Source: Thiomicrorhabdus cannonii
GTDB taxonomy: Bacteria > Pseudomonadota > Gammaproteobacteria > Thiomicrospirales > Thiomicrospiraceae
Direction: 5' to 3'
Assembly (NCBI RefSeq): GCF_013391695.1
Contig: NZ_JACBGH010000002.1
Span: forward strand, 124,001 to 188,000
Length of the DNA: 64,000 nucleotides
Under the pieces are notes generated by a model, which saw only the letters and a list, made by a program, of their open reading frames with translations, was not told where the DNA came from and did no database searches. Below, piece after piece: positions 33,181-50,688 of the stretch; the stretch's first letter is position 1, and each line of letters starts with the position of its first letter. The translations under genes were made by a program, and so were the position numbers.

Positions 33181-33535
33181 GGGGATGTACTGGTTTCGAC
33201 GGGGAGACTGAAGTTTAAGATGCATGTCGTGCCTGAATGATGCACGTAAATCTTAGTTCATTTAGTTATAGTTGCAAACGACGATAACTACGCTCTAGCG
33301 GCTTAATCCCGCTGGTGCAGCACGGGACCGTTGCCTATGGCCCCTGTTGCTGTATCGACTTACATAGGATCGTATCAAGTACGTGTTTGGGTGCTTGGTA
33401 TTAAACTTTACAAGCTCGCTTATCGTGATCCCTGCTGGTCGGGCAACGGTAGGTTAAATTCAAAGACCAAATAAACATGTAGAGTTTTAAGTGGATGCTT
33501 TCCGGACGGCGGTTCGATTCCGCCCATCTCCACCA
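33181..33535 (+). ncRNA. ssrA: tmRNA (SsrA)
   Basis: A 355-nt transfer-messenger RNA. The 5' end GGGGATG pairs with CATCTCC at the 3' end to form the tRNA-like acceptor stem, ending in an encoded CCA (33533-33535). The 5' domain GGTTTCGACGGGGAGACT and the 3' T-arm GGTTCGATTCC are canonical. The resume codon GCA at 33274 starts the tag ANDDNYALAA, ending at TAA 33304-33306, the usual proteolysis tag with hydrophobic LAA end. The 3' end is the integration site of the adjacent element and is left intact by the insertion. Confidence 0.98.
33522..33535 (+). repeat. attL core: 14-bp direct repeat in ssrA
   Basis: GCCCATCTCCACCA, the last 14 bases of tmRNA, repeated exactly at 43210-43223. It marks the left boundary of the integrated element. 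Confidence 0.85.
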
Positions 33536-33749: not shown

Positions 33750-34988
33750 ATGCCTTTAACAGATACCCAGATCAAAAAAACCAAAGCTAACGGCAAAGTA
33801 CAAAAGCTGAATGACGGGGGCGGGTTGCGGCTGGAAATCTCCAAAGCTGGAAGCAAGGCATTCAAGTACAGAATCAGAATGCAGGGCAAGGATACTGATA
33901 TTACGCTGGGGCTTTATCCTGCAATGAGCCTTGCAGAGGCAAGGGCAAAACGTGATGAAGTCAAAGCAATGGTGAAACAAGGCATTGACCCCATACAGCA
34001 ACGCAACCAACTCCAGAAAGAACAGAAAGCCATTGAACAGGCGCAAGCACAGCGCCTTACGTTTCAAGAACTGTTTGCGCAGTGGTTCAAGCAGAATGCA
34101 GGGGGCTGGAGTTATGACTATCAGATTGACACGCATAACCGAATAACACAGCACCTGTTACCCACACTAGGTGAACAGTTTATTGATGAAGTCACCCCGC
34201 AACAGGTAATTCATGCCCTCAAAACAATGGAGGCCAAAGGGCTAGGGGATTCATTACATAAGGTGAAACAGTATGCATCAAGAATTTTCCGCTTCGGCGT
34301 CGGGCTGGGTTTATGCCCATCCGATCCAGTGCGAGACATCCCGTCGGGGGACATTTTCAAGAAGCAAACAAAAAAGAATTTCCACCACCTGACCAAAACC
34401 AGTGACCTACACCAGCTACTAAATGCTATTGATTTGTATGTTGGGGATATAAGCACCTCCACCGCCTTGAAATTGGCGCCCCATGTGTTTTTACGACCTA
34501 GCGAACTTGCTGGGCTTAGATGGGATGAAGTGGATTTGAATAAAGACATAATCATCATTCCTGCCGAGCGCATGAAAATGAAACGCCCCCACATGGTGCC
34601 CCTATCCAGACAGGCTAAGGCCATTATAGAAACCATGCTGCCATTTAAGCACGGCACAGAGTATGTTTTCCCAAGCCCTAGAAGCCCAAAGCGCCCAATG
34701 TGCAAAGAATCATTAAATGCCGCATTGCACCGCCTAGGCTTCAAGGGCAAGCAGACCGCACACGGCTTTAGACACACCGCAAGCACCCTGCTGCATGAAA
34801 TGGGCTACACCAGCGATTACATCGAAAAACAGCTAGCACATGAACAGGACAACGAGATTAAAGGCGCATACAACAAGGCCGAATACCTAACCCAGCGCGT
34901 CGAGATTATGCAAGCATGGAGTGACCATCTGGATGCTCTCAAAGCAGGCGCGGACGTTATCCCAATTCACAAAAACGCAGGAAAATAA
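33750..34988 (+). CDS. int: Tyrosine-recombinase integrase
   Basis: A 412-residue phage-type integrase. The N-terminal DUF4102-like arm-binding domain (MPLTDTQIKKTKANGKVQKLNDGGGLRLEI, then LGLYPAMSLAEARAKRDE) is followed by a core-binding domain and the catalytic domain with Arg in FLRPSELAGLRW, H-x-x-R in AHGFRHTAS, His in KQLAHEQ and the nucleophile tyrosine in GAYNKAEYL. ATG 33750 has AGAGG at seven bases; the frame is open upstream into ssrA but that part is not coding. It would integrate at and excise from the tmRNA 3' end using the direct repeats. Confidence 0.95.
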   Translation: MPLTDTQIKKTKANGKVQKLNDGGGLRLEISKAGSKAFKYRIRMQGKDTDITLGLYPAMSLAEARAKRDEVKAMVKQGIDPIQQRNQLQKEQKAIEQAQAQRLTFQELFAQWFKQNAGGWSYDYQIDTHNRITQHLLPTLGEQFIDEVTPQQVIHALKTMEAKGLGDSLHKVKQYASRIFRFGVGLGLCPSDPVRDIPSGDIFKKQTKKNFHHLTKTSDLHQLLNAIDLYVGDISTSTALKLAPHVFLRPSELAGLRWDEVDLNKDIIIIPAERMKMKRPHMVPLSRQAKAIIETMLPFKHGTEYVFPSPRSPKRPMCKESLNAALHRLGFKGKQTAHGFRHTASTLLHEMGYTSDYIEKQLAHEQDNEIKGAYNKAEYLTQRVEIMQAWSDHLDALKAGADVIPIHKNAGK

Positions 34989-35063: not shown

Positions 35064-35363
35064 ATGAAGTATAAGATATTAACCACCGCAAAATTTAATA
35101 AATGGTTTAAGTCGATTAAGGACAAGCAGACCAAATACCGATTAGAAGCCCGAATTAACCAAGTGGCAAACGGACATTTTGGAGACAGCAAGCCGATTGA
35201 TGCAGACATTCACGAATTACGCTTTTTCTTTGCTGGTGGGATTCGTATTTACTATACGGTTAGAGGCACTGAGGTAGTTTTGTTGCTCAATGGGGGCGAT
35301 AAATCGACACAGACCAAGGACATAGAACAGGCTAAGAACCTGTTTAAGCAACTGGGGGAATAA
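35064..35363 (+). CDS. HigB/RelE-like toxin (addiction module killer family)
   Basis: A 99-residue basic protein of the phage-derived Gp49-like / RelE-superfamily toxins. Recognisable parts are TAKFNKWFKSIKDKQTKYRLEARINQ near the start and ELRFFFAGGIRIYYTVRGTEVVLLLNGGDKSTQTKDIEQA, the RelE-type beta-sheet core typical of the COG3657 killer family. Such toxins are mRNA interferases that stop translation. The toxin gene precedes the antitoxin by 2 bp, the order of HigBA-type pairs. Probably stabilises the element after integration. Confidence 0.9.
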   Translation: MKYKILTTAKFNKWFKSIKDKQTKYRLEARINQVANGHFGDSKPIDADIHELRFFFAGGIRIYYTVRGTEVVLLLNGGDKSTQTKDIEQAKNLFKQLGE

Positions 35364-35365
35364 TC

Positions 35366-35650
35366 ATGGCACTGGAATTACAAGAATTTGAATTTGCTCA
35401 AGGTGTGGATACAAAAGAGGATATGGCCTTGTATCTCAGCACCTACTTAGAAGAAGGTGGTATTAACGGCTTGCTGGATGGGTTGCGACACTTGGCTAAA
35501 GAGAAAGGCATAACCGAAACAGCAGAACTCAGCGGCCTAAACCGACAACACCTTTACCGCGTATTGAACGGAGAGACAAAACCAAAGTTTGAAACGCTGG
35601 ACAAGCTACTACACGCCCTAGGATTCAAGATTGCGGTTGCTGTGGCCTGA
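35366..35650 (+). CDS. HigA-like antitoxin
   Basis: A 94-residue antitoxin of the HTH type paired with the preceding toxin. An acidic N-terminal half (EFAQGVDTKEDMALYLSTYLEEG), likely to wrap the toxin, is followed by an HTH (KGITETAELSGLNRQHLYRVLNGETKPKFETLDKLLHALG) near residues 50-88. The combination is typical of COG3636 'putative addiction module antidote' proteins. It should autorepress the pair through an operator before 35064. Confidence 0.9.
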   Translation: MALELQEFEFAQGVDTKEDMALYLSTYLEEGGINGLLDGLRHLAKEKGITETAELSGLNRQHLYRVLNGETKPKFETLDKLLHALGFKIAVAVA

Positions 35651-35831: not shown

Positions 35832-35956
35832 AAAGCGGAGTGCCTACCTAACAGCAGCATTGGCGCGGCCTAGCCCGACGGGGCAAAAAGGGATTATCCA
35901 CCCCCTGACCGTGCCACCTTATTTAAACCGGATAACGAAGCTGGGAGGCTTTGATT

Positions 35957-36610
35957 ATGAATTATTTAGACCTTTACCAACTGCACCCCACGCTACAAAT
36001 TTGGGAAGCAGCCGCCCTACTAATAGATATTAATCCGTACCTAGTGCATGAGCCTACCGGGTACAGTGATGACAATGATTATGCATTGATGGTATGGAAC
36101 GACGGAATAGGCACAGAAAGAGATGAAAACCCCAAATACCAGCTAATCATCAAGACACTAATCAAGGCGGCAAACTACGGTAAGTTTGACGACATCCCCG
36201 GCATTGAAACCCCGCATTACGCACATAGCGAAATCAGCGCGCAAAACCTAAAGGACTGGGCGTTATCTACCGGCCAATTTAAATGCGAATATCTAGGTAA
36301 CACCAGCAGCGCAAACGATACAGGCCACGAAGAACCAGCAGAGCGCGTAGCACAATCCAGCAGCCCGGCCTATCTTGATGAAGACAGCCCAAACTATGCC
36401 CCAGATTTAGCGTTAGCGATTCAAGCATGGGAGGCCGTGAATAATGGCTATGGTCGTGCTGGCGATACGTTTAAAAACAGGGTTATTTATTGGCTGGAAG
36501 AAAATCACGGCATTGGCCGCAAGAATAAGCAATACGGAACAGAAACAAATAACCTTGATTCCAGAGCAAGCCAAATTGCAACCGTGGCAAATCCCAACAG
36601 ACGGAAGTAA
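35957..36610 (+). CDS. Hypothetical protein of the integrated element
   Basis: A 217-residue soluble protein. The first 35 residues (MNYLDLYQLHPTLQIWEAAALLIDINPYLV) look like the 'W-x-x-x-E-A-A-x-L-L-x-x-I-x-P' start found in many island and prophage hypotheticals; the rest is acidic with a low-complexity middle. GGGAGG lies eight bases before ATG 35957; an in-frame TTG at 35951 is less likely. It is followed by a terminator, so it is transcribed separately from the replication operon. Function unknown. Confidence 0.7.
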   Translation: MNYLDLYQLHPTLQIWEAAALLIDINPYLVHEPTGYSDDNDYALMVWNDGIGTERDENPKYQLIIKTLIKAANYGKFDDIPGIETPHYAHSEISAQNLKDWALSTGQFKCEYLGNTSSANDTGHEEPAERVAQSSSPAYLDEDSPNYAPDLALAIQAWEAVNNGYGRAGDTFKNRVIYWLEENHGIGRKNKQYGTETNNLDSRASQIATVANPNRRK

Positions 36611-36660: not shown

Positions 36661-36812
36661 GGTGCACCTAGAAACGTGCCATATAAACCTTTAAACAGGT
36701 GGACAGATACTTTAATTTGTCGGACTAAAAACGACCACCCACCCCCGCTTTAATTGCCTCCAAGCGCACCCAGTTGCGCAATGCTAAAACCCATTGCATG
36801 GAGGTAATCACA

Positions 36813-37004
36813 ATGCAAAAAATCAGAATGGCAGCCCTTGCCAAACAATTCCAAGTTAACCCGGCCACTATCTACCGCTGGATAAAAACGCAGGGATTCC
36901 CTAAGCCTATCAAATTAAGCCCGAATTGCAGCGCGTGGAATGTTGCAGAGGTGGAAGCCTGGGAGAAAACCCGCGAACGTGGTGTAACAGAGGGGGCGGC
37001 CTGA
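36813..37004 (+). CDS. AlpA-family transcriptional regulator/excisionase
   Basis: A 63-residue MerR-like winged helix protein of the AlpA type. The domain covers almost the whole protein: RMAALAKQFQVNPATIYRWIKTQGFPKPIKLSPNCSAWNVAEVEAWEKTR, with the classical 'x-F-P-x-P-x-x-L/I' and 'W-x-x-x-E-V-x-x-W' pattern. GGAGG lies eight bases before the ATG. In P4-type elements AlpA controls excision or early genes. It is the first gene of a run of overlapping genes to 40935. The upstream 36661-36812 presumably holds the operon promoter; I could not place it. Confidence 0.88.
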   Translation: MQKIRMAALAKQFQVNPATIYRWIKTQGFPKPIKLSPNCSAWNVAEVEAWEKTRERGVTEGAA

Positions 37005-38013: not shown

Positions 38014-38345
38014 TGGAAAAACTGATTAAAATCATGCGCTCTAACAACCTAGAGGCCATTGCCAACCGTGTTCGCATGGGCAAGGCCGCTGGGAATGATT
38101 TGGCAACGCTTAGAGAGTTTGCTTGGCAAGCAGAAACGCACATTGAATGCCGCCTGGTTCAACTTGAAAGCCTTGCAAAAGCCCTTCAAGTGGCTTGTCT
38201 AGATGCGGATAATACAGGCATTTTTGACCCTAAAATAGACGGCTTTAACTTTGGGTTCTGGTTACAAGAAGAAGCCCAGACCCTGCAAGCCCTAACCGCT
38301 ATGCAATCAGATTTGGAGTATCTGAGCCGCGGGGGTGAAGCATGA
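38013..38345 (+). CDS. Hypothetical helical protein
   Basis: A 110-residue, mostly alpha-helical protein (DLATLREFAWQAETHIECRLVQLESLAKAL, then WLQEEAQTLQALTAMQSDLEYL). Its ATG overlaps the preceding stop (TAATG), and its own stop overlaps the primase-like start by four bases (ATGA), so it is part of the tightly packed replication operon. No family recognised. Helix content and position suggest an accessory to the downstream primase-like protein, which is inference only. Confidence 0.7.
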   Translation: MEKLIKIMRSNNLEAIANRVRMGKAAGNDLATLREFAWQAETHIECRLVQLESLAKALQVACLDADNTGIFDPKIDGFNFGFWLQEEAQTLQALTAMQSDLEYLSRGGEA

Positions 38346-39424
38346 CCGCACTAGCCTTAAACCCTACCCCTCAACTACCCCTCAATCAACGCCCACCGAT
38401 TGACCTTAGCACGCTTACCCAGATGCTGACCTACATCCCCGCCGATACCGACCGGGGGGAATGGGTAGCGGTACTTATGGCAATTAAATCCGAGTTTGGA
38501 GACGGCGCCAGAGAGACCGCCCGCGAATGGAGCGCCACCGCCGCCACTTACCGGCCTGCTGACTTTAACGACACCTGGAGAAGTATCAAGGCCGGGGGCG
38601 GTGTCACCATTGGCACACTAGTAAGCAAGGCCAAAGCGAACGGCTTTAGATTCCAGCCGATCAGTCAACACGAACGCCAACGGCTGACAATGGCACAGCA
38701 ACAGCGCAAAACCCAACAGGCCGCCGCCCTTGCCATTGAAGCCCAACGGCTGGCCGCCAACTACCAGCGCGCCAGTGAACAGGCCTACCGCATACTGGGA
38801 AGCGCCCAACCCGCCCCCGCTAACCATCCCTATCTGATCCGCAAGCAAATAGACGCTCACGGCGTTCTATATGGCACGGTGTGGAGTTACGAGGATGCCT
38901 TAATTATTCCCATGGCCGGAACTCAACCGCCCTTTGCCGGTGTAGTGCAATCCCTGCAATTCATTCAGCCGGACGGCACTAAACGCTATTTGAAAGGCGC
39001 AAAGAAAGACGGCGGTTACTACCCCATCCAGTGGGTTGAAGATGCGCCTATTGTGATTTGTGAAGGCTTTGCCACCGGCGCAACACTGGCACAGCACTAC
39101 ACCCCATTCAGCAGCGTGGTATGTGCGTTTGATGCGGGCAACCTGCTGGCCGTGGCACGGTTTTTCCGCAAACAATACCCAGCCGCACAAATCATCATTG
39201 CCGGGGACAACGACCACCACACCGAGCGCACCACCGGCCGCAATCCGGGCAAAGACAAGGCCACCGCCGCCGCGCGTGCCGTTGGGGCAGAAATCAGCCT
39301 ACCCTACTTTGCTGAAACCGAAGCGGGCACCGACTGGAACGACCGCTATTTAATCGACCAGAACAAGCTGGAAAACATGGAACATAACGCACTTTATACC
39401 GAACGCCTAGGGGGTGAAGCATGA
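38342..39424 (+). CDS. Primase-like protein (PriCT-2 and Toprim domains)
   Basis: A 360-residue replication protein. Residues ~20-100 resemble a PriCT-2 domain (LSTLTQMLTYIPADTDRGEWVAVLMAIKSEFGDGARETAREWS, then DFNDTWRSIKAGGGVTIGTLVSKAKANG). A Toprim-like catalytic region follows at ~230-310: VICEGFATGATLAQ supplies the conserved glutamate, and IIAGDNDHH the D-x-D. Such proteins prime replication of mobile elements. Overlaps its neighbours at both ends (ATGA). A likely partner of the DUF3987 protein, and the repeat region after it may be the origin. Confidence 0.87.
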   Translation: MTALALNPTPQLPLNQRPPIDLSTLTQMLTYIPADTDRGEWVAVLMAIKSEFGDGARETAREWSATAATYRPADFNDTWRSIKAGGGVTIGTLVSKAKANGFRFQPISQHERQRLTMAQQQRKTQQAAALAIEAQRLAANYQRASEQAYRILGSAQPAPANHPYLIRKQIDAHGVLYGTVWSYEDALIIPMAGTQPPFAGVVQSLQFIQPDGTKRYLKGAKKDGGYYPIQWVEDAPIVICEGFATGATLAQHYTPFSSVVCAFDAGNLLAVARFFRKQYPAAQIIIAGDNDHHTERTTGRNPGKDKATAAARAVGAEISLPYFAETEAGTDWNDRYLIDQNKLENMEHNALYTERLGGEA

Positions 39425-40935
39425 CCGCCGCAAAAAAAGACAACATCACCCGCTTAGAAACGGTTTCACCCTACCCCGCCCCCGAACCATTGGGATATAA
39501 AGATAACGCCGCCGCACCCTATCCAGTGGACGCACTGGGGGATTATCTGGCAAACATGGCAAGGTTACTGCATGAAGTGGTACAGGCACCGCTGGCCTTG
39601 TGCGGTCAGTCGGTACTTATGAGCGCGTCCCTGGTGGCGCAGGGCTACCGCAATGCCGAAATAGACGGGCGAACCATTCCGTTAAGTTTGTTTGCCCTGA
39701 CCATTGCCGAATCCGGGGAGCGCAAAAGCGGGGTTTATCGCTGGGCAACCGCCCCCATCAATGCCCTTGAAAAGCAACTGGCCGAAACCTTTAGGGAGGA
39801 TTTAACCGCTTACCGTTTGGAGAATGAAGCCTATTTGCAGGCTAAAGCCAATATCAAGGCAAAGCTCAAAAAGACAACCGACCCGGACGAACTCACGCAA
39901 GCACTCAAAGCACTGGGCACACCACCCCCAGCGCCTAAAGACCCGGTTATATTGCCGGAAGACCCCACCATTGAAGGCATGACAAAGCACTTAGCACGCG
40001 CCCAGCCTTGCGCCGGTATTTTCACCGATGAAGGGGCGGCATTCTTTGGCGGGCATTCCATGGGCAAGGAAAAGGCCGCCCGCACCGTGGCGCTCTATTC
40101 GCGCGCGTGGGACGGCTCACCGCTGGGCATGATGCGATCCAATGAGGACGCGCCCAACTTCAAGATATACAACCGCCGCATTGCAATGCACCTAATGCTA
40201 CAACCCGTCATTGTTAGAGAGGTATTCAATAACCCGCTACTGATTGAGCAAGGGTTTATCCCCCGCTTTCTCATTGCCTACCCACCCAGTGCAATGGGCA
40301 CACGATTTTACAATGAGGCAAGCATAGCAGACGATACACGCTTCAAAGCCTACTTTGCCCGCCTGCTGGAACTACTGGAAAACGGCTGGCACATTGACCC
40401 AGACGGCGGCCTAGACCTGTTAAACCTGACCATTACCGGCACAGCCAAACAAGCCTTTATCGCCTTTAGTGACGAAGTGGAAAGGCAACTACACCCTAAC
40501 GGGGATTTACGGCACATAAGCGGCACAGCGGCCAAAATAGCCGAACAGTCCGCCCGCATTGCCGGGGTACTTACATTCATCAAGGACGGCACACAGGCAA
40601 AGACCATAGCACCAGAACAGATGCGCGCAGGCATTACCCTGGCACGCTATTCACTGGCCGAACTCTTAAGGCTAAAGGAGAACGCCACCATAGCCCCCGA
40701 AATAGACAAAGCAAGGGCATTGCTGGGCTGGGTAAAAATCAACGGTTTAAGTTACCTTTATCAAAACCTAATGGCAAGCTACCGACCAAGGGCGCTACGT
40801 GCAAAGCAGGATTTTGAACAGGCCGCCCGCGTATTGGTTGAACACGGGTATTTATTGCCCGTCGAACCAATGGAATTGAACGGCAGTTTGCGCAAGGAGG
40901 TTTACCGCGTTTTACATACAGATGAGCCTGATTAA
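39421..40935 (+). CDS. DUF3987 family protein (helicase-like)
   Basis: A 504-residue protein of the DUF3987 family, common in mobile elements beside Toprim primases. The P-loop-like segment is IAESGERKSGVYRWATAPI near residue 100; ESGERKSG departs from the G-x-x-x-x-G-K-S/T consensus by losing the first glycine. A further conserved acidic segment is PCAGIFTDEGAAFFGGHSMG. The C-terminal part resembles a winged helix (DFEQAARVLVEHGYLLPVEPM). Starts four bases inside the preceding gene. Probably the replicative helicase partner of the element; ATPase activity is inferred. Confidence 0.83.
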   Translation: MTAAKKDNITRLETVSPYPAPEPLGYKDNAAAPYPVDALGDYLANMARLLHEVVQAPLALCGQSVLMSASLVAQGYRNAEIDGRTIPLSLFALTIAESGERKSGVYRWATAPINALEKQLAETFREDLTAYRLENEAYLQAKANIKAKLKKTTDPDELTQALKALGTPPPAPKDPVILPEDPTIEGMTKHLARAQPCAGIFTDEGAAFFGGHSMGKEKAARTVALYSRAWDGSPLGMMRSNEDAPNFKIYNRRIAMHLMLQPVIVREVFNNPLLIEQGFIPRFLIAYPPSAMGTRFYNEASIADDTRFKAYFARLLELLENGWHIDPDGGLDLLNLTITGTAKQAFIAFSDEVERQLHPNGDLRHISGTAAKIAEQSARIAGVLTFIKDGTQAKTIAPEQMRAGITLARYSLAELLRLKENATIAPEIDKARALLGWVKINGLSYLYQNLMASYRPRALRAKQDFEQAARVLVEHGYLLPVEPMELNGSLRKEVYRVLHTDEPD

Positions 40936-40956
40936 AAATCACACTCTAGGGAAAGT

Positions 40957-41250
40957 GGCTTTTTTGGCTATTGTGGCTATTCCGACAATATGCCAACCCC
41001 CAAAGCCCGTAAACATGCGGGTTTGCGGGGCTTTAAAAAAAAGCCACCCCCCGGCTATTAGCGGCTATTCTTTGGCTATGTTTCCAAAAAAAGCCAACGA
41101 GAAGCCACAGAATAGCCACCCATAGCCACCCACTGGCTATTTTTCCCAGACATTCGCAACCCCCCTGAAACCCGCTAACCATGCGGGTTTCAGCATTTAG
41201 GCCACCTTACCAAGATTCAAAAAAAGCCAAAAAGCCAAAATAGCCACCTT
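40957..41250. repeat. Iteron family A: GGCTATT / AATAGCC
   Basis: At least ten copies in both orientations with 9-11 bp spacing: for example GGCTATT at 40966, 40975, 41053, 41063, GGCTATG at 41074, and inverse TAGCCACC copies at 41112 and 41123 and AGCC cores at 41224-41245. Spacing close to one DNA turn suggests cooperative protein binding. Confidence 0.7.
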
Positions 41251-41349
41251 TCCTAAAACCTGTTTTTTATTCAGGCCGCCAATTCACCCGAAAAAGAAGA
41301 GAACGCCTTTACCACCGGATTTACTCTCTTTTACCCTCGCCCCAACATC

Positions 41350-41775
41350 GCCCTCACCGTGACCTTACCGTAAAAGCACAAAGCATTGGGGTTGTCTTGG
41401 GGTTATCTGACACGGTAAAAGAGTATCGTTTCCGAAACACCCTTATCAATAGCTTATCAACCCTTACCGTAACCTTGCCGTAATGGTCGTTGCGACATCG
41501 TTGTCTTAAGGTGCCGTCACCTTGCCGAAGAAAAATGCTGACATTCTTTTTGTGACATTGCGTGACAAGTCGTGACGCGCTCAAAGTCATTTCTAAGCCT
41601 ACCTCTTAAATACCCGTTATTTGGAACACTACCATCGCCCTTATATCGCCCTTGGTGGTCATTTACCCGTGCCGTAACAATGCCCTAATTTCAGTTCTAA
41701 CCCTTAGTGCTACCTTAGTGTGATTGACCCTACCCGTCATTTTTACCCTTGCTGTAACCTTGTTGTTAATTCGCT
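41350..41775 (+). repeat. Iteron family B: TTRCCGTRACCTTRCCGTAA
   Basis: Six degenerate copies of a unit built from two 11-mers, at about 41355 (CACCGTGACCTTACCGTAA), 41463, 41512, 41671, 41704 and 41749. Similarity falls off toward the right end. The first copies are the best conserved. Confidence 0.65.
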
Positions 41776-41811
41776 AAAATGATTCCTGTTACGTCATTCA
41801 AGGGAACGGCA

Positions 41812-42174
41812 ATGAACTACCGAGTACAGCTAATCGAATTGCTTAGACGCTGGGGCTATTACATCAATCAGCAGCGACTTGAGTTAGGAGCAGTAAACTC
41901 AGTATTTCAGTCTGATGCTTTTACACTGGGTGGACGAGTTGACCAGTGCAAGATGAATGAAAGTCTTGGTTTAACTAATGAAGATTGCACCTTCAACTAC
42001 TCTCCTGAACTAGATCGGCTAACAGAAATCATCAACAACTTGCCACCGCCAGAGAGACAAGATATTTACCGAGCCTATGCAGAACAGAGTACCGAACTAA
42101 ACCATCAACTAGGCAGTGCATTGTCGTTATTGATTGCAAGGATTACCAAGCAGCAGCATGATGCTTTACACTAG
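41812..42174 (+). CDS. Hypothetical cargo protein A
   Basis: A 120-residue protein (MNYRVQLIELLRRWGYYINQQRLELGAVNSV...). The N-terminus is a basic amphipathic helix resembling small phage regulators, but no family is recognised. AAGGGAACGG lies upstream of the ATG. It is the first of three genes between the repeat region and the right end of the element, the place where satellite elements often carry accessory or defence genes. No catalytic motif is seen, so function is open. Confidence 0.65.
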   Translation: MNYRVQLIELLRRWGYYINQQRLELGAVNSVFQSDAFTLGGRVDQCKMNESLGLTNEDCTFNYSPELDRLTEIINNLPPPERQDIYRAYAEQSTELNHQLGSALSLLIARITKQQHDALH

Positions 42175-42200
42175 CCTTTATTCATTCAAAGGGGCGCATT

Positions 42201-42791
42201 GTGTTCAGCAAACTAAAATCATTCTTTGGAATCGGGCAACAAAAAGCACTTGATGACTGGCATACACAGCTAACAAGTCAAAATGAATCGGTGAACCTCG
42301 ACACTCACCCACAATGCCCTAAATACCTTTCACTTGAAGTCACTGACTTTCACCATCCAAACGAAAACAGGGGGGTGTTTACGGTCGAAGCGGCTGAACT
42401 ATTGCAATGGTTCATAAAACGTGGCCGGCAAAGTGATTTTGAAACAACCTTTAGACAATGGCTAGGCAATGCCGACAGTGGCAACGAAGAAACCTATGCG
42501 CTTTCAGCAAACACCATCCATAAACTCAACCTTCAATTTTTCGTTGATGACGCACTCGAATATGGCCACGCAATTAAAGCCCACTGCCCTGTGTGTGATC
42601 AAGAACGTACAAACGATGAATTAAAACTGATTCAAGAATCATGCTCCGGCTGGGTGTATCGCATGGTTGATTGTCAATGTGGAAACAGGCTGGCGAGTTA
42701 TCAGGTTATGCACCTGATGTTAAGGGCTGGTGCTGAAATGCCAAAAAGTGCAACGCGAGTGGTTAAGGATTTTGGAAATGTAAACACATGA
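42201..42791 (+). CDS. Hypothetical cargo protein B with zinc-ribbon-like cysteines
   Basis: A 196-residue protein starting at GTG 42201 with AAAGGGGCG upstream. The C-terminal half carries C-P-V-C, then a cysteine in ESCSGW and C-Q-C (HCPVCDQERTNDE ... MVDCQCGNRL), which looks like a zinc-binding ribbon. The N-terminus (MFSKLKSFFGIGQQKALDDWHTQL) is amphipathic and could contact membrane or protein. It overlaps the next small gene (ATGA). No family recognised. Confidence 0.65.
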   Translation: MFSKLKSFFGIGQQKALDDWHTQLTSQNESVNLDTHPQCPKYLSLEVTDFHHPNENRGVFTVEAAELLQWFIKRGRQSDFETTFRQWLGNADSGNEETYALSANTIHKLNLQFFVDDALEYGHAIKAHCPVCDQERTNDELKLIQESCSGWVYRMVDCQCGNRLASYQVMHLMLRAGAEMPKSATRVVKDFGNVNT

Positions 42792-42958
42792 GTAAAAGCA
42801 AGCCAGATAATGCCTCTAGAGAACTGACTCAAGAAGAAATGGATGCGTTAAGAAAGGAGATGAAAGAAGCCTCCAAAAAGCTTTCGGAATATTTTAGGAA
42901 TAACCCTAGAGTAATTAGATTCAAGGAGAGGCTTTCAAAGGAAAGAAGTAACCACTAA
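42788..42958 (+). CDS. Small highly charged protein C (56 aa)
   Basis: A 56-residue reading frame starting at ATG 42788, four bases inside the preceding gene (ATGA), and ending at TAA 42956-42958. The product is dominated by a charged helix (ELTQEEMDALRKEMKEASKKLSEYF) with a basic tail. Coupled translation and coding-like composition support it; no family is recognised. Could partner protein B. Confidence 0.6.
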   Translation: MSKSKPDNASRELTQEEMDALRKEMKEASKKLSEYFRNNPRVIRFKERLSKERSNH

Positions 42959-43209
42959 CGACACTCAGTGACGAAAGCGGCTAGAAGTCTCACTGATGAA
43001 TCCCCTGGGAAATGCAAATCTAAAAACAGTATCGACAATCACCATGCACTTGTCAAAGAGCGTTCAGTGAATAGGAAGTGAACACCGATCCTAAAACTTG
43101 TTTTTATGTCACGGACTGGCATCCAAGCGCAGAAAAAACGGGGGTAAATTCGGGGGTAAAAATGACATCAACCCCCTGTAGGCCAGTAAAAACGGCACTA
43201 TTTGCCATT
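42959..43209. other. Right end of the integrated element, no gene seen
   Basis: About 250 bp between the last cargo gene and the right attachment core. Apart from the GGGGGTAAA arm repeats I see no gene, terminator or promoter. With the 90 bp beyond attR the gene-free stretch is 355 bp. Confidence 0.5.
43139..43176. repeat. Right cluster of GGGGGTAAA arm-type repeats
   Basis: Two direct copies CGGGGGTAAA at 43139 and 43151, and an inverted ACCCCC at 43170-43176, mirroring the cluster at 33659-33733. Confidence 0.7.
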
Positions 43210-43223
43210 GCCCATCTCCACCA
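43210..43223 (+). repeat. attR core: 14-bp direct repeat
   Basis: GCCCATCTCCACCA identical to the end of tmRNA at 33522-33535; the bases just outside differ. It defines the right boundary. Confidence 0.85.
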
Positions 43224-43269
43224 ATCATTAATTCTTTTTGATTCTTTCAGTTTTTAGCGCCCATAAAAA

Positions 43270-43289
43270 AAAGTGGCCGGAGCCACTTT
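43270..43289. terminator. Terminator of the 177-residue hypothetical gene
   Basis: Stem AAAGTGGC / GCCACTTT with CGGA loop and a T tract on the minus strand. It lies just outside attR, so before integration it may also have stopped ssrA transcripts. Confidence 0.8.
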
Positions 43290-43313
43290 CAATAATAGAG
43301 TCACTTTCAGTGA

Positions 43314-43847
43314 TTATTCCATACAGCTGAAACGGCACACATTCACACTGATATATTCACTGTAGGCGCTACCAGACTGCACCCAGTTTTTGACTTTGTT
43401 GCTGATCGCCTGCGGCAGCATTTTTTCATCCAGCGACAGATGAAAACCGTATTTGAATCGCGGACTGCTGTTGTCTTCCGCCACGACCTTGCCGTCTTCG
43501 ACAAACAACTTAAACGTCGTTTCCTTGCCCGGCATGGAGATAAACGCATTTTCGCCGTGTTCCTGAATCAACGCCGACAGTTCACGATTGAAATACTCTT
43601 TGCTCAACGGGTTGAACTGATAGTACTCTTTAAGGATCGATTCGGCATTGGCCAGCAAATGCGCCTTAAGCGCCTGAGCGGAATCGAATTGTTCGTCGCC
43701 CAACTCGTAAATCACATAAGCCTCTTCCGGCTTGCCGAGCGCCAACGCCTTGTCCTGAAACACCACCAAAGCCGCGCCGTCCAGCACCGCTTGATAGTCT
43801 TCGTCAGCAAAGGTTTGCAACGCTTCTTTAAATTGTTCCGTATTCAT
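43314..43847 (-). CDS. Conserved-looking hypothetical protein near cbb operon
   Basis: A 177-residue soluble protein with a clear ribosome site (AAGGAGAAACAG). The N-terminal part is helical (MNTEQFKEALQTFADEDYQAVLDGAALVVFQDKALALG); the C-terminus carries two cysteines in VNVCRFSCME. No signal peptide or membrane helix. I do not recognise the family. It is host DNA, outside the integrated element, and lies on the same strand as the cbb operon but downstream of its terminator, so it is expressed separately. Confidence 0.7.
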   Translation of the reverse strand: MNTEQFKEALQTFADEDYQAVLDGAALVVFQDKALALGKPEEAYVIYELGDEQFDSAQALKAHLLANAESILKEYYQFNPLSKEYFNRELSALIQEHGENAFISMPGKETTFKLFVEDGKVVAEDNSSPRFKYGFHLSLDEKMLPQAISNKVKNWVQSGSAYSEYISVNVCRFSCME

Positions 43848-46634: not shown

Positions 46635-46646
46635 AAATCTTTTTTA

Positions 46647-47465
46647 TTAACCGAAGAACGTATCCACTGTGGTCAACAGAGTATCCAGAATATCGTCATC
46701 ATCCGTCAGCGGCGTAATCAATGCCATCGTACAGGCTTTCTTAGGCTCGACACCTTTATTGATCAACTGCCCTGCGTAGACCAACAGACGGGTTGAGATA
46801 CCCTCGTCCAGACCGTGACCTTTGAGGTTACGTGAACGCTGTGCGACTTGAACCAGTTTCTCGGCCGTTGGACGGTCAATACCCGCTTCTTTGGAAACGA
46901 TGTCCGCTTCCACTTCGGCTTCAGGGTAATCGAACTTGAAGCCGCCGAAACGCTGTTTGGTCGATTGCTTCAGGTCTTTCATCATCGACTGGTAACCCGG
47001 GTTATAAGAGATTACCAACTGGAAGTCCGGGTGCGCTTCAACCAACTCGCCTTTCTTATCCAAAGGCAATACGCGGCGGTGGTCAGTCAACGGGTGGATA
47101 ACAACCGTGGTATCCTGACGGGCTTCCACCACCTCGTCCAGGTAACAGATGGCGCCGATACGTGCCGCAACCGTCAAAGGACCGTCCTGCCAGCGCGTAC
47201 CGTTGATGTCGATCAGGTAACGACCGACCAAATCCGATGCGGTCATATCTTCGTTACACGCCACCGTAATCAGCGGCTTGCCCAGCTTGTAAGCCATGTA
47301 TTCAACAAAACGCGACTTACCGCAACCGGTTGGGCCTTTAAGCATGATTGGCATACGTGAAGCGTAACCCGACTCAAACAGCTCAATCTCATCCGCTACC
47401 GGACGGTAGAAAGGTTCGTTTTTAATAATATATTGTGTTGGATCTAGAGCGTTGATTTCAGACAT
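46647..47465 (-). CDS. cbbQ: RuBisCO activase ATPase CbbQ
   Basis: A 272-residue MoxR-type AAA+ ATPase that forms hexamers and, through CbbO, reactivates inhibited RuBisCO. Walker A is in [16 protein letters not shown] near residue 43; Walker B in [15 protein letters not shown]; sensor 1 in [12 protein letters not shown]; and the C-terminal region ends the fold. Length and gene order are those of the CbbQ1-type in form IAq operons. It follows cbbS by 264 bp containing several hairpins, which may reduce readthrough from cbbLS. Confidence 0.97.
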
Positions 47466-47543
47466 CAGATTTCTCCATTGTTCATGTCACTTAGAATTGC
47501 CGACTCGGTGAGTCAAATCAGCATGTCTAAATGGGAATCGAGT

Positions 47544-47563
47544 CCAAGTTAGAACAAACTTGG
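47544..47563. other. CCAAGTT / AACTTGG hairpin, cbbS-cbbQ spacer
   Basis: Perfect 7-bp stem with AGAACA loop, just downstream of the larger terminator-like stem in transcription order. Confidence 0.55.
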
Positions 47564-47566
47564 GGA

Positions 47567-47600
47567 TAAAAAGGCCAACCGATTTCGGGGTCGGTTGACC
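47567..47600 (-). terminator. Intra-operon terminator/attenuator after cbbS
   Basis: Near-perfect 10-bp stem (GGCCAACCGA / TCGGTTGACC) followed on the minus strand by TTTTTAT. It would end most cbbLS transcripts, so cbbQO would get less message, fitting the large excess of RuBisCO over its activase. Confidence 0.75.
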
Positions 47601-47609
47601 GTTTTTACC

Positions 47610-47728
47610 CGTTCAGGAGGTAAGGGGCTGAACGGATAAACTGGTTTCGAACGTGGCGATTTTATCTCCCCGTTCAGAATTCTGGGGTGCCACACGGCAG
47701 TCGGGGAACCGCCGCGTGGCCGGACGAT
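47610..47728. other. Further hairpins in the cbbS 3' region
   Basis: CCGTTCAG / CTGAACGG around an 11-base loop (47610-47636), another CCGTTCAG at about 47680, and a GCCAC..GTGGC pair at about 47690-47720. These may protect the 3' end of the abundant cbbLS message. Confidence 0.5.
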
Positions 47729-47729
47729 A

Positions 47730-48083
47730 TTACATATCGCCGCGTTTTACCAACATGTTCGCACCTTGAGACTGTGCGAAGTTGTCATAACCAATCAAAC
47801 GAACGTGGTTGTTTGGGTTGGCTTTGATACAGTTGTTAACTTCTGCCAGTACTGCACTTGCATCAGTTTCACCGAACATCGGCAGCTTCCACATGTACCA
47901 GTAGTAAGAGAAAGCATTCTCTGGCTCAGTGTGTTCGATAGCTGGGTTCCAGCCCTTGCTGATGATGTACTCAACTTGTTTTTTGATCTGATCGTCAGTC
48001 ATTTTTGGAAGGTAAGAGAATGTCTCTGCCTTACGTGACTTTGGATCGGAAATACGTGATGGATAATCTTGTACTTGACTCAT
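47730..48083 (-). CDS. cbbS: RuBisCO small subunit (form I)
   Basis: A 117-residue subunit that caps the octameric large-subunit core. Conserved segments: [37 protein letters not shown], then [25 protein letters not shown]. It lies 22 bp after cbbL. The ATG is preceded by AGGAG (TAGGAGAATAGACA). Form I RuBisCO has both subunits, unlike the form II CbbM also found in related autotrophs. Confidence 0.97.
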
Positions 48084-48105
48084 TGTCTATTCTCCTAAAT
48101 TCAAA

Positions 48106-49524
48106 TTACTTGTGAGCAACATCTAGCTTGTCAACAGTATCGAATTCAAACTTGATTTCTTTCCAAGTTTCCATTGCGATCTTAAGTTCTGGGCTATGCT
48201 TAGCAGCGTTAGTAAGAACTTCTTTACCGTTCTTCTCAACTTCGATACCTTCGTTACGTGCTTGAACACACGCTTCCAAAGCCACACGGTTAGCCGCCGC
48301 ACCTGCTGCGTTACCCCATGGGTGACCCAAAGTACCGCCACCGAACTGTAGAACAGAGTCGTCACCGAAGATAGTTACCAAGGCTGGCATGTGCCATACG
48401 TGGATACCACCAGATGCAACTGGGATTACACCAGGCATCGCACCGAAGTCTTGGTCGAACATGATGCCGCGTGAACGGTTTTCTGGGATGAAGCTATCAC
48501 GCATGATATCGATCCAACCCAAAGTCGCTTCACGGTCACCTTCCAACTTACCAACAACCGTACCTGAGTGCAGGTGGTCACCACCAGACAAACGCAGTAC
48601 TTTAGCCAATACGCGGAAGTGGATACCGTGCATTGGGTTACGGTCGATTACACCGTGCATTGCGCGGTGGATGTGCAACAACAGACCGTTTTTACGGCAG
48701 TAGTTAGCCAGACCCGTGTTGGCAGTCAAACCACCAGTCAAGAAGTCGTGCATGATGATCGGAGTACCGATTTCTTTAGCGAATTCAGCACGCTCGTACA
48801 TCTCTTCTGGCGTACCAGCAGTAACGTTCAAGTAGTGACCTTTACGCTCGCCTGTTTCAACTTGAGCTTTTTCGATAGCTTCTTGACAGAACAGGAAACG
48901 GTCTCTCCAGCGCATGAATGGCTGAGAAGTTACGTTTTCGTCGTCTTTAGTGAAGTCCAGACCGCCACGCAGACACTCATAAACCGCACGACCGTAGTTC
49001 TTAGCAGACAAACCTAGTTTTGGCTTGATAGTACAACCCAACATTGGACGGCCGTACTTATCCATTTTGTCACGCTCAACCTGGATACCGTGTGGTGGTC
49101 CACCGCAAGTCATCACGTAAGCTAGTGGGAAACGGATATCTTCAAGGCGGATAGAGCGCAATGCTTTAAAGCCGAATACGTTACCAACCAAAGAGGTCAT
49201 TACCGATACGATTGAACCTTCTTCGAACAGGTCGATCGGGTAAGCGATGAATGCGTAGTAGGCAGAATCGTCACCTGGAACGTCTTCGATGCGGTACGCA
49301 CGACCTTTGTAGTAGTCAAGGTCAGTCAACAAGTCAGTCCATACAGTTGTCCAAGTACCTGTTGAAGATTCAGCCGCAACTGCCGCCGCACACTCTTCAC
49401 GAGAAACACCTTCTTGTGGAACAACTTTAAAACACGCCAAAAAGTCTGAGTCTTTTGGCTCATAATCTGGCATCCAATACGTTTCGCGGTATTCTTTTAC
49501 ACCGGCATTATAAGTCTTAGCCAT
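48106..49524 (-). CDS. cbbL: RuBisCO large subunit (form I)
   Basis: A 472-residue catalytic subunit that fixes CO2 onto ribulose bisphosphate in the Calvin cycle. Active-site features: [35 protein letters not shown] (the catalytic lysine in TIKPK, and the lysine that is carbamylated in DFTKDDE), loop 6 in [14 protein letters not shown], and HVWHMPALV. The N-terminal [17 protein letters not shown] and downstream cbbQ/cbbO identify form IA of the non-carboxysomal IAq group; no carboxysome genes are nearby. Divergent from cbbR. Its mRNA is probably abundant: codon use here is visibly less GC-rich than in neighbours. Confidence 0.98.
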
Positions 49525-49740
49525 CTTTTACCTCTTTATAGATTGATAGTAAAAAAGTCTGAATTAGCAATTTGTTTGGTGCGTTTCATTTCGCTCCTTG
49601 CCTTCAGTGATTGCTATGTTAGGGAAAACTCTTGATGGCTTCTCGCATGGTTTGTAATACAATTTATATACATTTGTTTATTCATAAACAGTAAATACAA
49701 TAAAATCAATAATTTAAATTTTTGACACGGGCAAAAAACA
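49525..49740. promoter_or_regulatory. cbbL-cbbR divergent control region
   Basis: 216-bp AT-rich region expected to hold CbbR operators. A LysR-type palindrome TTTAT-TC-ATAAA lies at 49677-49688, and TTGTAATACAA at about 49651-49661 is a second dyad. They are spaced by about 26 bp, as CbbR sites often are. Exact promoters could not be fixed. Confidence 0.65.
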
Positions 49741-50667
49741 ATGCAAAATTTACATATCACCGCGCAACAAATTCGAATTTTTGAAGCGGTCGCCCGTCAT
49801 TTGAGCTATACCAAAGCCGCCGAAGAACTCAATTTATCGCAGCCTGCGGTGTCGATTCAGATCAAACGTCTGGAAGAAAATAACGACGTCAAACTGGTCG
49901 AAGTCATCGGCAAAAAACTCTATCTAACGCGCTCCGGCGAACGCATGTATCAAACCTGCCAGCGCATTCTTGAAGAACTCAAAGAATTGAATGGTGTGAT
50001 TAAGTCCGAACACCAGAAAATCGAAGGGCAACTCAAAATCGCCGTGGTGACGCCGGCCAAATACTTTATGCCATACATCCTCAAGGCGTTTCTGAACCGT
50101 TATCCCGATGTGCGCCCGGCCATTACCGTCATCAACCGCCGCCGCATTTTGGACGAACTCAAAAACAATCAATACGACCTGTCGATCATGGGACGCGTAC
50201 CCGAAGAACTCAAAATGGAATCCTTCCCCTTCTTCCAGAACGTGTTGGTGGTCGCGGCTCCGCCCAATCACCCCCTGGCCAAAGCCAAAAGCATCAACCC
50301 TAAAGACATCGCCAACGAGCGCTTTCTGATGCGTGAAAAGGGGTCGGGAATACGCATTTCCGTTGAAGAACGTTTTGCCGAACACGGCGTGACCATTGAA
50401 CCTTATATGGAACTGGGCAGCACCGAATCCATTAAGCAAGCGGTGATGGCCGGTTTGGGCATTTCCGTCCTGCCCAAACAATCCATCCGCATTGAAGCGA
50501 AATACGGCCATTTGGTAATTTTGGATGTGGAAGGTTTTCCGCTGCGGCGCGACTGGTATGTCGCCTGGATGAAAGACAAAAACCTCGATCCCAGCGCACA
50601 AGCCTTTGTCGAGTTCTTGAAAAGTGTCGATATCGACCGCCTGCTGGCGATGTCGGATACACGTTGA
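49741..50667 (+). CDS. cbbR: LysR-type regulator CbbR
   Basis: A 308-residue LysR-family activator of the divergent cbb operon. The N-terminal HTH is TAQQIRIFEAVARHLSYTKAAEELNLSQPAVSIQIKRLEENNDVKLVEV (residues ~7-56); the rest is the effector-binding domain, which in CbbR senses Calvin-cycle or redox metabolites. The assignment rests on its position 216 bp from cbbL in divergent orientation. The ribosome site is not strong (ACGGGCAAAAAACA). Confidence 0.94.
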   Translation: MQNLHITAQQIRIFEAVARHLSYTKAAEELNLSQPAVSIQIKRLEENNDVKLVEVIGKKLYLTRSGERMYQTCQRILEELKELNGVIKSEHQKIEGQLKIAVVTPAKYFMPYILKAFLNRYPDVRPAITVINRRRILDELKNNQYDLSIMGRVPEELKMESFPFFQNVLVVAAPPNHPLAKAKSINPKDIANERFLMREKGSGIRISVEERFAEHGVTIEPYMELGSTESIKQAVMAGLGISVLPKQSIRIEAKYGHLVILDVEGFPLRRDWYVAWMKDKNLDPSAQAFVEFLKSVDIDRLLAMSDTR

Positions 50668-50688
50668 AGAATGGATTTTTTGGCTGTG

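Follow-up and report, generated by a model that had tools for sequence, protein, structure and literature searches.

The right end of a mobile island in Thiomicrorhabdus cannonii carries three short open reading frames without a recognised family, and the question raised by this locus is whether they form a new anti-phage module, serve the island itself or are merely carried along with it. A first-pass annotation of the window, that is, the whole 64,000-nt stretch of DNA that was analysed, had described ORFs of 120, 196 and 56 aa, the last two overlapping by four bases, and their lengths, coordinates, strand and overlap all proved correct. Gene A (41812-42174) encodes 120 aa and has no accepted relatives; it may be a Q/ArpU-type regulator, which is a weak lead. 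Gene B (42201-42791) encodes 196 aa from a GTG start, shows a zinc-ribbon pattern and has two homologues, while gene C (42788-42958) encodes 56 aa, among them 15 K/R and 10 D/E. The stop codon TGA of B (42789-42791) and the ATG of C (at 42788) form a 4-nt ATGA overlap, and Shine-Dalgarno-like purine-rich stretches precede both A (AAGGGAACGGCA-ATG) and B (AAAGGGGCGCATT-GTG). These three genes are read on the + strand, as are ssrA, the att cores and the genes, RNAs and iteron-like region of the island given below.

The island is 9.7 kb long and is integrated in ssrA, the tmRNA gene (33181-33535, tag ANDDNYALAA), which was detected by ARAGORN and by Rfam RF00023 (210 bits). The attL core GCCCATCTCCACCA (33522-33535) sits at the 3' end of the tmRNA and matches exactly the 14-nt attR core at 43210-43223, the two being 9,688 bases apart, start to start. 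An empty site was found in a congener, where the tmRNA (L060:987-1341) is followed after about 160 nt by a homologue of the chromosomal gene that lies to the right of attR. This locus was the only one among 10 congener loci scanned in which a tmRNA was found near that homologue; in the other nine either this gene has another location or the stretch examined does not include the tmRNA. The boundaries of the island, including the attR placed by the first-pass annotation, are thus confirmed by the 14-nt repeat together with the empty site. Further to the right (46640-50670), genes that look by eye like form I RuBisCO, a LysR-type regulator and an AAA protein of the CbbQ type suggest an autotrophic host.

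The order within the island is integrase, toxin, antitoxin, int-alpA RNA, a 219-aa ORF, AlpA, sRNA-Xcc1, primase, helicase, repeats, A, B and C. The tyrosine integrase with its Arm-DNA-bind_3 domain (33750-34988) matched PF00589 at 2.4e-25 and PF13356 at 1.1e-23, both measured on a longer ORF opening at 33495, and NF007246 at 2.3e-74, which is below the cut-off of that model. A RelE/ParE-family toxin of the HI1419 type (35064-35363; TIGR02683, 9.3e-33) and an HTH antitoxin of the HI1420 type (35366-35650; TIGR02684, 1.6e-20), both above cut-off, lie directly 3' of the integrase; this pair probably stabilises the island. Between int and alpA an int-alpA RNA (RF02996, 35863-35928) scored 36.5 bits, just above the gathering threshold of 35.8, and is followed by the 219-aa ORF (35951-36610), which had no family in Pfam, PHROGs and NCBIfam scans, and by the AlpA-type regulator (36774-37004; PF05930, 5.3e-9, 36.3 bits against a cut-off of 21). 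An RNA of the sRNA-Xcc1 family (RF02221, 37599-37687; 57.2 bits, gathering 53) is located between AlpA and the primase. It falls within a naive 201-aa ORF, the N-terminal portion of which may thus not be real. The replication genes encode a PriCT_2 and Toprim primase (38342-39424; PF08707 9.4e-16, PF13362 4.1e-11, phrog_2249 1.9e-70) and a DUF3987/YfjI helicase (39421-40935; PF13148 6.6e-89, phrog_2373 2.6e-58). A second, distant DUF3987 gene is present in the same genome (G000:C11:25433-26350; 24% identity, E 2.2e-20), possibly as part of another island.

Downstream of the helicase, an iteron-like region (41350-41766) comprises seven copies of ACCCTTACCGT (41350-41755) that overlap seven copies of AACCTTGCCGT (41361-41766), copies being counted with up to 2 mismatches, and it stops 45-57 nt upstream of A. 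In 25 dinucleotide shuffles the best-scoring 11-mer never had more than three to five copies, against seven for the iteron-like 11-mer. Just 3' of the DUF3987 gene (40950-41145) there are also GGCTAT/AGCCAC repeats and a 67-aa ORF containing AIVAIPT. By eye, seven of 10 sibling loci (L016, L026, L028, L029, L031, L033 and L034) encode, directly after the DUF3987 gene, a protein whose N-terminal region contains Ala/Thr/Pro repeats, e.g. ATATPATLATQ, and this peptide repeat may reflect the in-frame translation of an origin iteron. A promoter and terminator scan of 40900-43350 found no more than was found in shuffles.

Genes A, B and C lie downstream of the primase, the helicase and the iteron-like region and directly before attR, so that their assignment to a cargo slot agrees with the "Late" zone of Gram-negative PICIs as laid out in the parts of the PICI literature drawn on here. 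The slot was compared across related elements. Relatives of the DUF3987 protein occurred in eight other genomes of a 369-genome draw from the class (E 1e-30) and in 38 plasmid records, and 11 sibling loci were read, nine from these eight genomes (L026-L034) and two from plasmids (L015 and L016). Defence genes were found downstream of the DUF3987 gene in three of the 11, which were chosen by eye and then scanned, the PADLOC scan covering eight proteins from L034, L030 and L015 picked by eye as defence-like; in the other eight loci no defence gene stood out by eye. L034, which is also at ssrA and carries the tmRNA and an int-alpA RNA, encodes a type I methyltransferase, PDC-S05 and PrrC downstream of the helicase; its right att was not found in the stretch examined, and these defence genes probably lie inside the element. 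HmaC follows the helicase in L030, and MzaB, a ZorD/DpdE-type helicase and a cytosine methylase follow it in L015, together with an HNH protein without a match; in these two loci the genes may lie inside the element. The int-alpA RNA was detected in three of nine sibling loci scanned (L026, L028 and L034) and may thus mark this element family. Searched against ten sibling loci (L016, L026-L034), A, B and C gave no match better than E 0.11.

B was matched in three of 62 family genomes, its own included (the order search covered the same 62), which leaves two relatives among the 61 others, with about 30-31% and 23% identity. Both keep the CPxC...C zinc-ribbon pattern that had been noticed in B from its sequence. 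The cysteines of B are C129, C132, C158 and C160 (codons C129 to C160, 42585-42680, by comparison of the three homologues); the CPxC pair and C158 are invariant in both relatives, which carry a nearby His at the position of C160, and all three homologues have a further C/H soon after C158. Judged from these alignments, the view that B has the two conserved C/H ligand pairs of a predicted zinc ribbon is supported. A three-protein profile of B found only its own genome in the class draw and in a 398-genome draw from the phylum, each taken evenly from the larger group, so that any function of B would be lineage-bound. A pattern scan of genome contigs recovered one B locus, on the contig of one of the two relatives (Thiotrichales bacterium isolate ZodW_maxbin.150, G041), and missed the other (G055), and a further search of genome contigs with B returned none. 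No homologues were found in phages, plasmids or viral contigs with B, or in plasmids and phages with its relative P0004.

Away from the island, both relatives stand near other defence loci. In G041 the gene (L005:13092-13727) begins 409 nt after a tRNA-His, and the genes that follow it encode an HIT protein, a pair of type II methyltransferases, a type II restriction enzyme and an AAA protein with a match to PDC-M26A. In G055 the gene (L006:10905-11414) ends 13 nt from the nearest repeat, as read by eye, of a CRISPR array belonging to a type I-C locus with Cas1 and Cas8c, and is placed between this array and genes reading by eye as ZnuABC (L006:10500-11700). No integrase, AlpA or DUF3987 gene was seen by eye among the ORFs in about 20 kb around the two relatives, and tblastn found neither A nor C near them, one C match at E 0.31 being rejected. 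The three-gene module proposed in the first-pass annotation is not supported: B occurs twice without A and C, which themselves lack accepted relatives. A perfect inverted repeat (ATAGAACATAT...ATATGTTCTAT) lies 5' of the G055 gene and an inverted repeat (TGTTATTTA...TAAATAACA, L005:12891-13091) 5' of the G041 gene, for which 8 and 4 of 300 mononucleotide shuffles were as good; no counterpart was found upstream of A or B.

Family and structure searches gave B no name. No family above its curated cut-off or otherwise convincing was found for A, B or C in Pfam, NCBIfam, PHROGs and PADLOC; among the defence families of PADLOC, A, C and the B relatives had no match and B matched two PDC-S06 models at E 0.017 and 0.019. 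By sequence, the best solved structures were at E 0.1 for B, 1.3 for A and 0.42 for C, all unrelated. The predicted structure of B, made with one relative in the alignment, had a mean pLDDT of 55, and Foldseek found 0 matches to it at E 0.001 in PDB and BFVD; three BFVD rows below significance (3, 6 and 20) name NrdR-type zinc ribbons, which is compatible with a zinc ribbon and decides nothing. A likeness of the B model to a CRISPR effector chain (VIA-align, best Z 2.9 over 72 residues, rmsd 4.6) was rejected as too weak. That no fold was identified is due to the poor predicted structures (pLDDT 42 for A, which was modelled alone, and 55 for B).

C drew matches to MbpA (NF041418, E 4.4e-4, 20 bits, cut-off 90) and to a NikA-like family (E 3.7e-3, 17.8 bits, cut-off 27), mobilisation proteins; both scores are beneath the curated cut-offs, and lengths and architecture differ. 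Among the 62 family genomes, candidate relatives of C in G007 (E 0.023, interrupted by two stops) and in G012 (E 0.07) were rejected, as were three plasmid records (E 3-4), and viral contigs contained no homologues. Over 15 residues, C (within 42890-42958) shares 53% identity with a segment of the G055 relative of B, a likeness at E 0.02-0.06 in a five-protein comparison that is not significant; a split or fusion would be a possible origin.

We infer, with a probability of roughly 40%, that A, B and C are late or cargo genes of a satellite-like ssrA island, B being a zinc-ribbon accessory protein in phage conflict, A a regulator and C an assisting peptide. B would be a single-protein accessory factor, independently mobile, that binds nucleic acid or protein via its C-terminal predicted zinc ribbon and takes part in the conflict between phage and host, whether by defending the host or by interfering with a rival or helper phage. 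The role of A would be that of a small regulator, possibly one like Q/ArpU. C would be a short basic peptide, probably helical, that is translated in coupling with B; the three need not function as one module. The position of both B relatives beside defence loci, a restriction-modification island and a type I-C CRISPR array, is suggestive of a defence link, but the sample of two is tiny and accessory genes in general tend to gather in defence-rich islands. As a possible new defence gene B is a fair candidate, though an unproven one, and a defence reading is possible for B alone. It is unlikely that B founds a new lineage-restricted zinc-ribbon family with an anti-phage or phage-interference function that moves, within this bacterial family, among the cargo slots of satellites, tRNA islands and the edges of CRISPR loci, with C as its translationally coupled partner in the satellite version. 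The kind of cargo is already known; the B family is nameless in Pfam, PHROGs, PADLOC and NCBIfam.

Three other explanations were weighed. That the right end holds rapidly evolving cargo without a common purpose, in which unrelated accessory ORFs happen to be neighbours and B works outside phage conflict, in regulation, stress or metal metabolism, is somewhat unlikely: the lack of accepted relatives of A and C, the absence of both from the surroundings of the B relatives and the G055 copy standing next to putative ZnuABC genes are all in line with it, but A, B and C share a strand, B and C overlap, and both B relatives adjoin defence loci. It is very unlikely that C and perhaps also A are not genes, so that B alone is real, a reading that overlaps with the others. 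When 41126-43210 was dinucleotide-shuffled 500 times, four of the shuffles contained an ORF of 196 aa or longer, seven contained two of 120 aa or longer, and every one contained an ORF of 56 aa or longer; thus B, which also has homologues, is above chance and A moderately so, and the length of C alone is not. By a codon score for which 35 chromosomal ORFs of the window served as the training set, the annotated frame came first among the six for C, AlpA, the primase, the helicase and, narrowly, the integrase, among others, but not for A, B, the antitoxin and the 67-aa ORF. The failure of A and B possibly counts against both or mirrors foreign codon usage, which is possible given that A, B and C are AT-richer (GC 0.43, 0.44 and 0.37). 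A has no accepted homologue, but it is preceded by a Shine-Dalgarno-like site; C, equally without accepted homologues, has both the ATGA overlap and the best-scoring frame, and its MbpA match beats seven shuffles and one reversal of C in NCBIfam, none of which fell below 0.013.

It is also quite unlikely that the three genes are the satellite's own regulatory or late module, with A as a late-transcription regulator (Q/ArpU), B as a zinc-ribbon regulator working in the manner of the late activator Ogr/Delta, and C as an accessory, together timing late expression or hijacking the late genes of a helper. The only family match of A, to ArpU (TIGR01637, E 0.056, residues 63-119 on 65-123 of 136), points in this direction, but its 13.6 bits are far under the cut-off of 43.1, and the reading is weakened further by one of two shuffles of A, which drew another NCBIfam family at a near-equal E 0.086. 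Moreover, TIGR01637 matched in 31 of 60 family genomes within open frames of 291-344 aa, probably sigma factors, so that weak scores of this family are unspecific. The N-terminus of A aligns with phage Q (LLRRWGYYINQQRLE against VLERWGAWAANNHED; hhalign score 18 over 17 columns), a score reached by three of 200 shuffles, although its probability is 1.8% and five left-out true Q proteins scored 165-308. Pairwise local scores of A against 11 Q proteins were equalled by 5 to 179 of 300 shuffles, and semi-global scores were discarded as overlaps of sequence ends. The idea of a Q protein was followed through quuD, through 10 phage Q genes and through 80 viral loci, each of which is 100% identical to quuD in the matched part. 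A PF06530 search of the island's own genome, which holds A, gave nothing at E 0.001. By tblastn, homologues of A were absent from phages up to E 10 and from viral contigs and were limited to its own genome among the 62 of the family, and two Mucilaginibacter plasmid records at E 4 were rejected. The end of the iteron-like repeats close upstream of A would suit a regulatory module, while B stands against it: no Ogr/Delta domain appeared when the Pfam matches of B and of both its relatives were taken up to E 10, and these relatives lie outside such elements. For A itself, a small regulator of the Q/ArpU kind is possible and serves as a lead.

The satellite cargo reading, with B in phage conflict, matters in that cargo slots of satellites and islands are a known source of defence systems (e.g. 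the parts of PMC12595487 drawn on here), and B is a short, testable candidate found independently beside defence loci. If B were inactive against phages, this would show that a cargo-slot position alone is weak evidence.

In the tmRNA-site islands I23, I44 and I55 of Pseudomonas, as covered by those parts of PMC12595487, a 14-bp repeat, IntY, AlpA and defence cargo are found, and one tmRNA-site island of Pseudomonas is transduced by a jumbo phage. The present island shares with them the integration in tmRNA, the 14-nt repeat, an integrase and AlpA. It differs in that alpA is found near the 3' end in those islands, whose common YqaJ, RadC and Gp2-like genes were absent from the families matched here in Pfam, PHROGs and NCBIfam. 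The likeness of B to PDC-S06, of C to MbpA/NikA and of A to ArpU and phage Q is local and sub-threshold, and lengths and architecture differ.

The PICMI satellites of Vibrionaceae are described in the sections of PMC10803314 considered here as small elements of few genes with int, alpA and a DUF3987 gene; the PICMI model names PF13148 as the primase, and integration at fis is called a hallmark by the authors. The island holds the same set of int, alpA and DUF3987 gene, whereas it is inserted at ssrA, not at fis, and with 9.7 kb carries extra genes. Gram-negative PICIs, according to excerpts of PMC10111431 and PMC6092414, combine a one-directional int, AlpA, replication genes, an origin-like region and a variable late zone. 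In the island, int, AlpA and the primase are likewise on one strand in an integration-replication-late order, the iteron-like repeats at 41350-41766 downstream of the primase are a candidate origin, and a convincing head or tail gene is absent from the ten element proteins compared with PHROGs, the head or packaging matches being sub-threshold (C to a small terminase, E 0.036; the helicase, 0.074). The island departs from these PICIs in its replication genes, which are a PriCT/Toprim primase and a DUF3987 helicase, in the toxin-antitoxin pair after int and in a late zone where phage late genes were not recognised. In gene content and order it resembles Gram-negative PICIs and PICMIs, with A, B and C in the position of the late or cargo zone.
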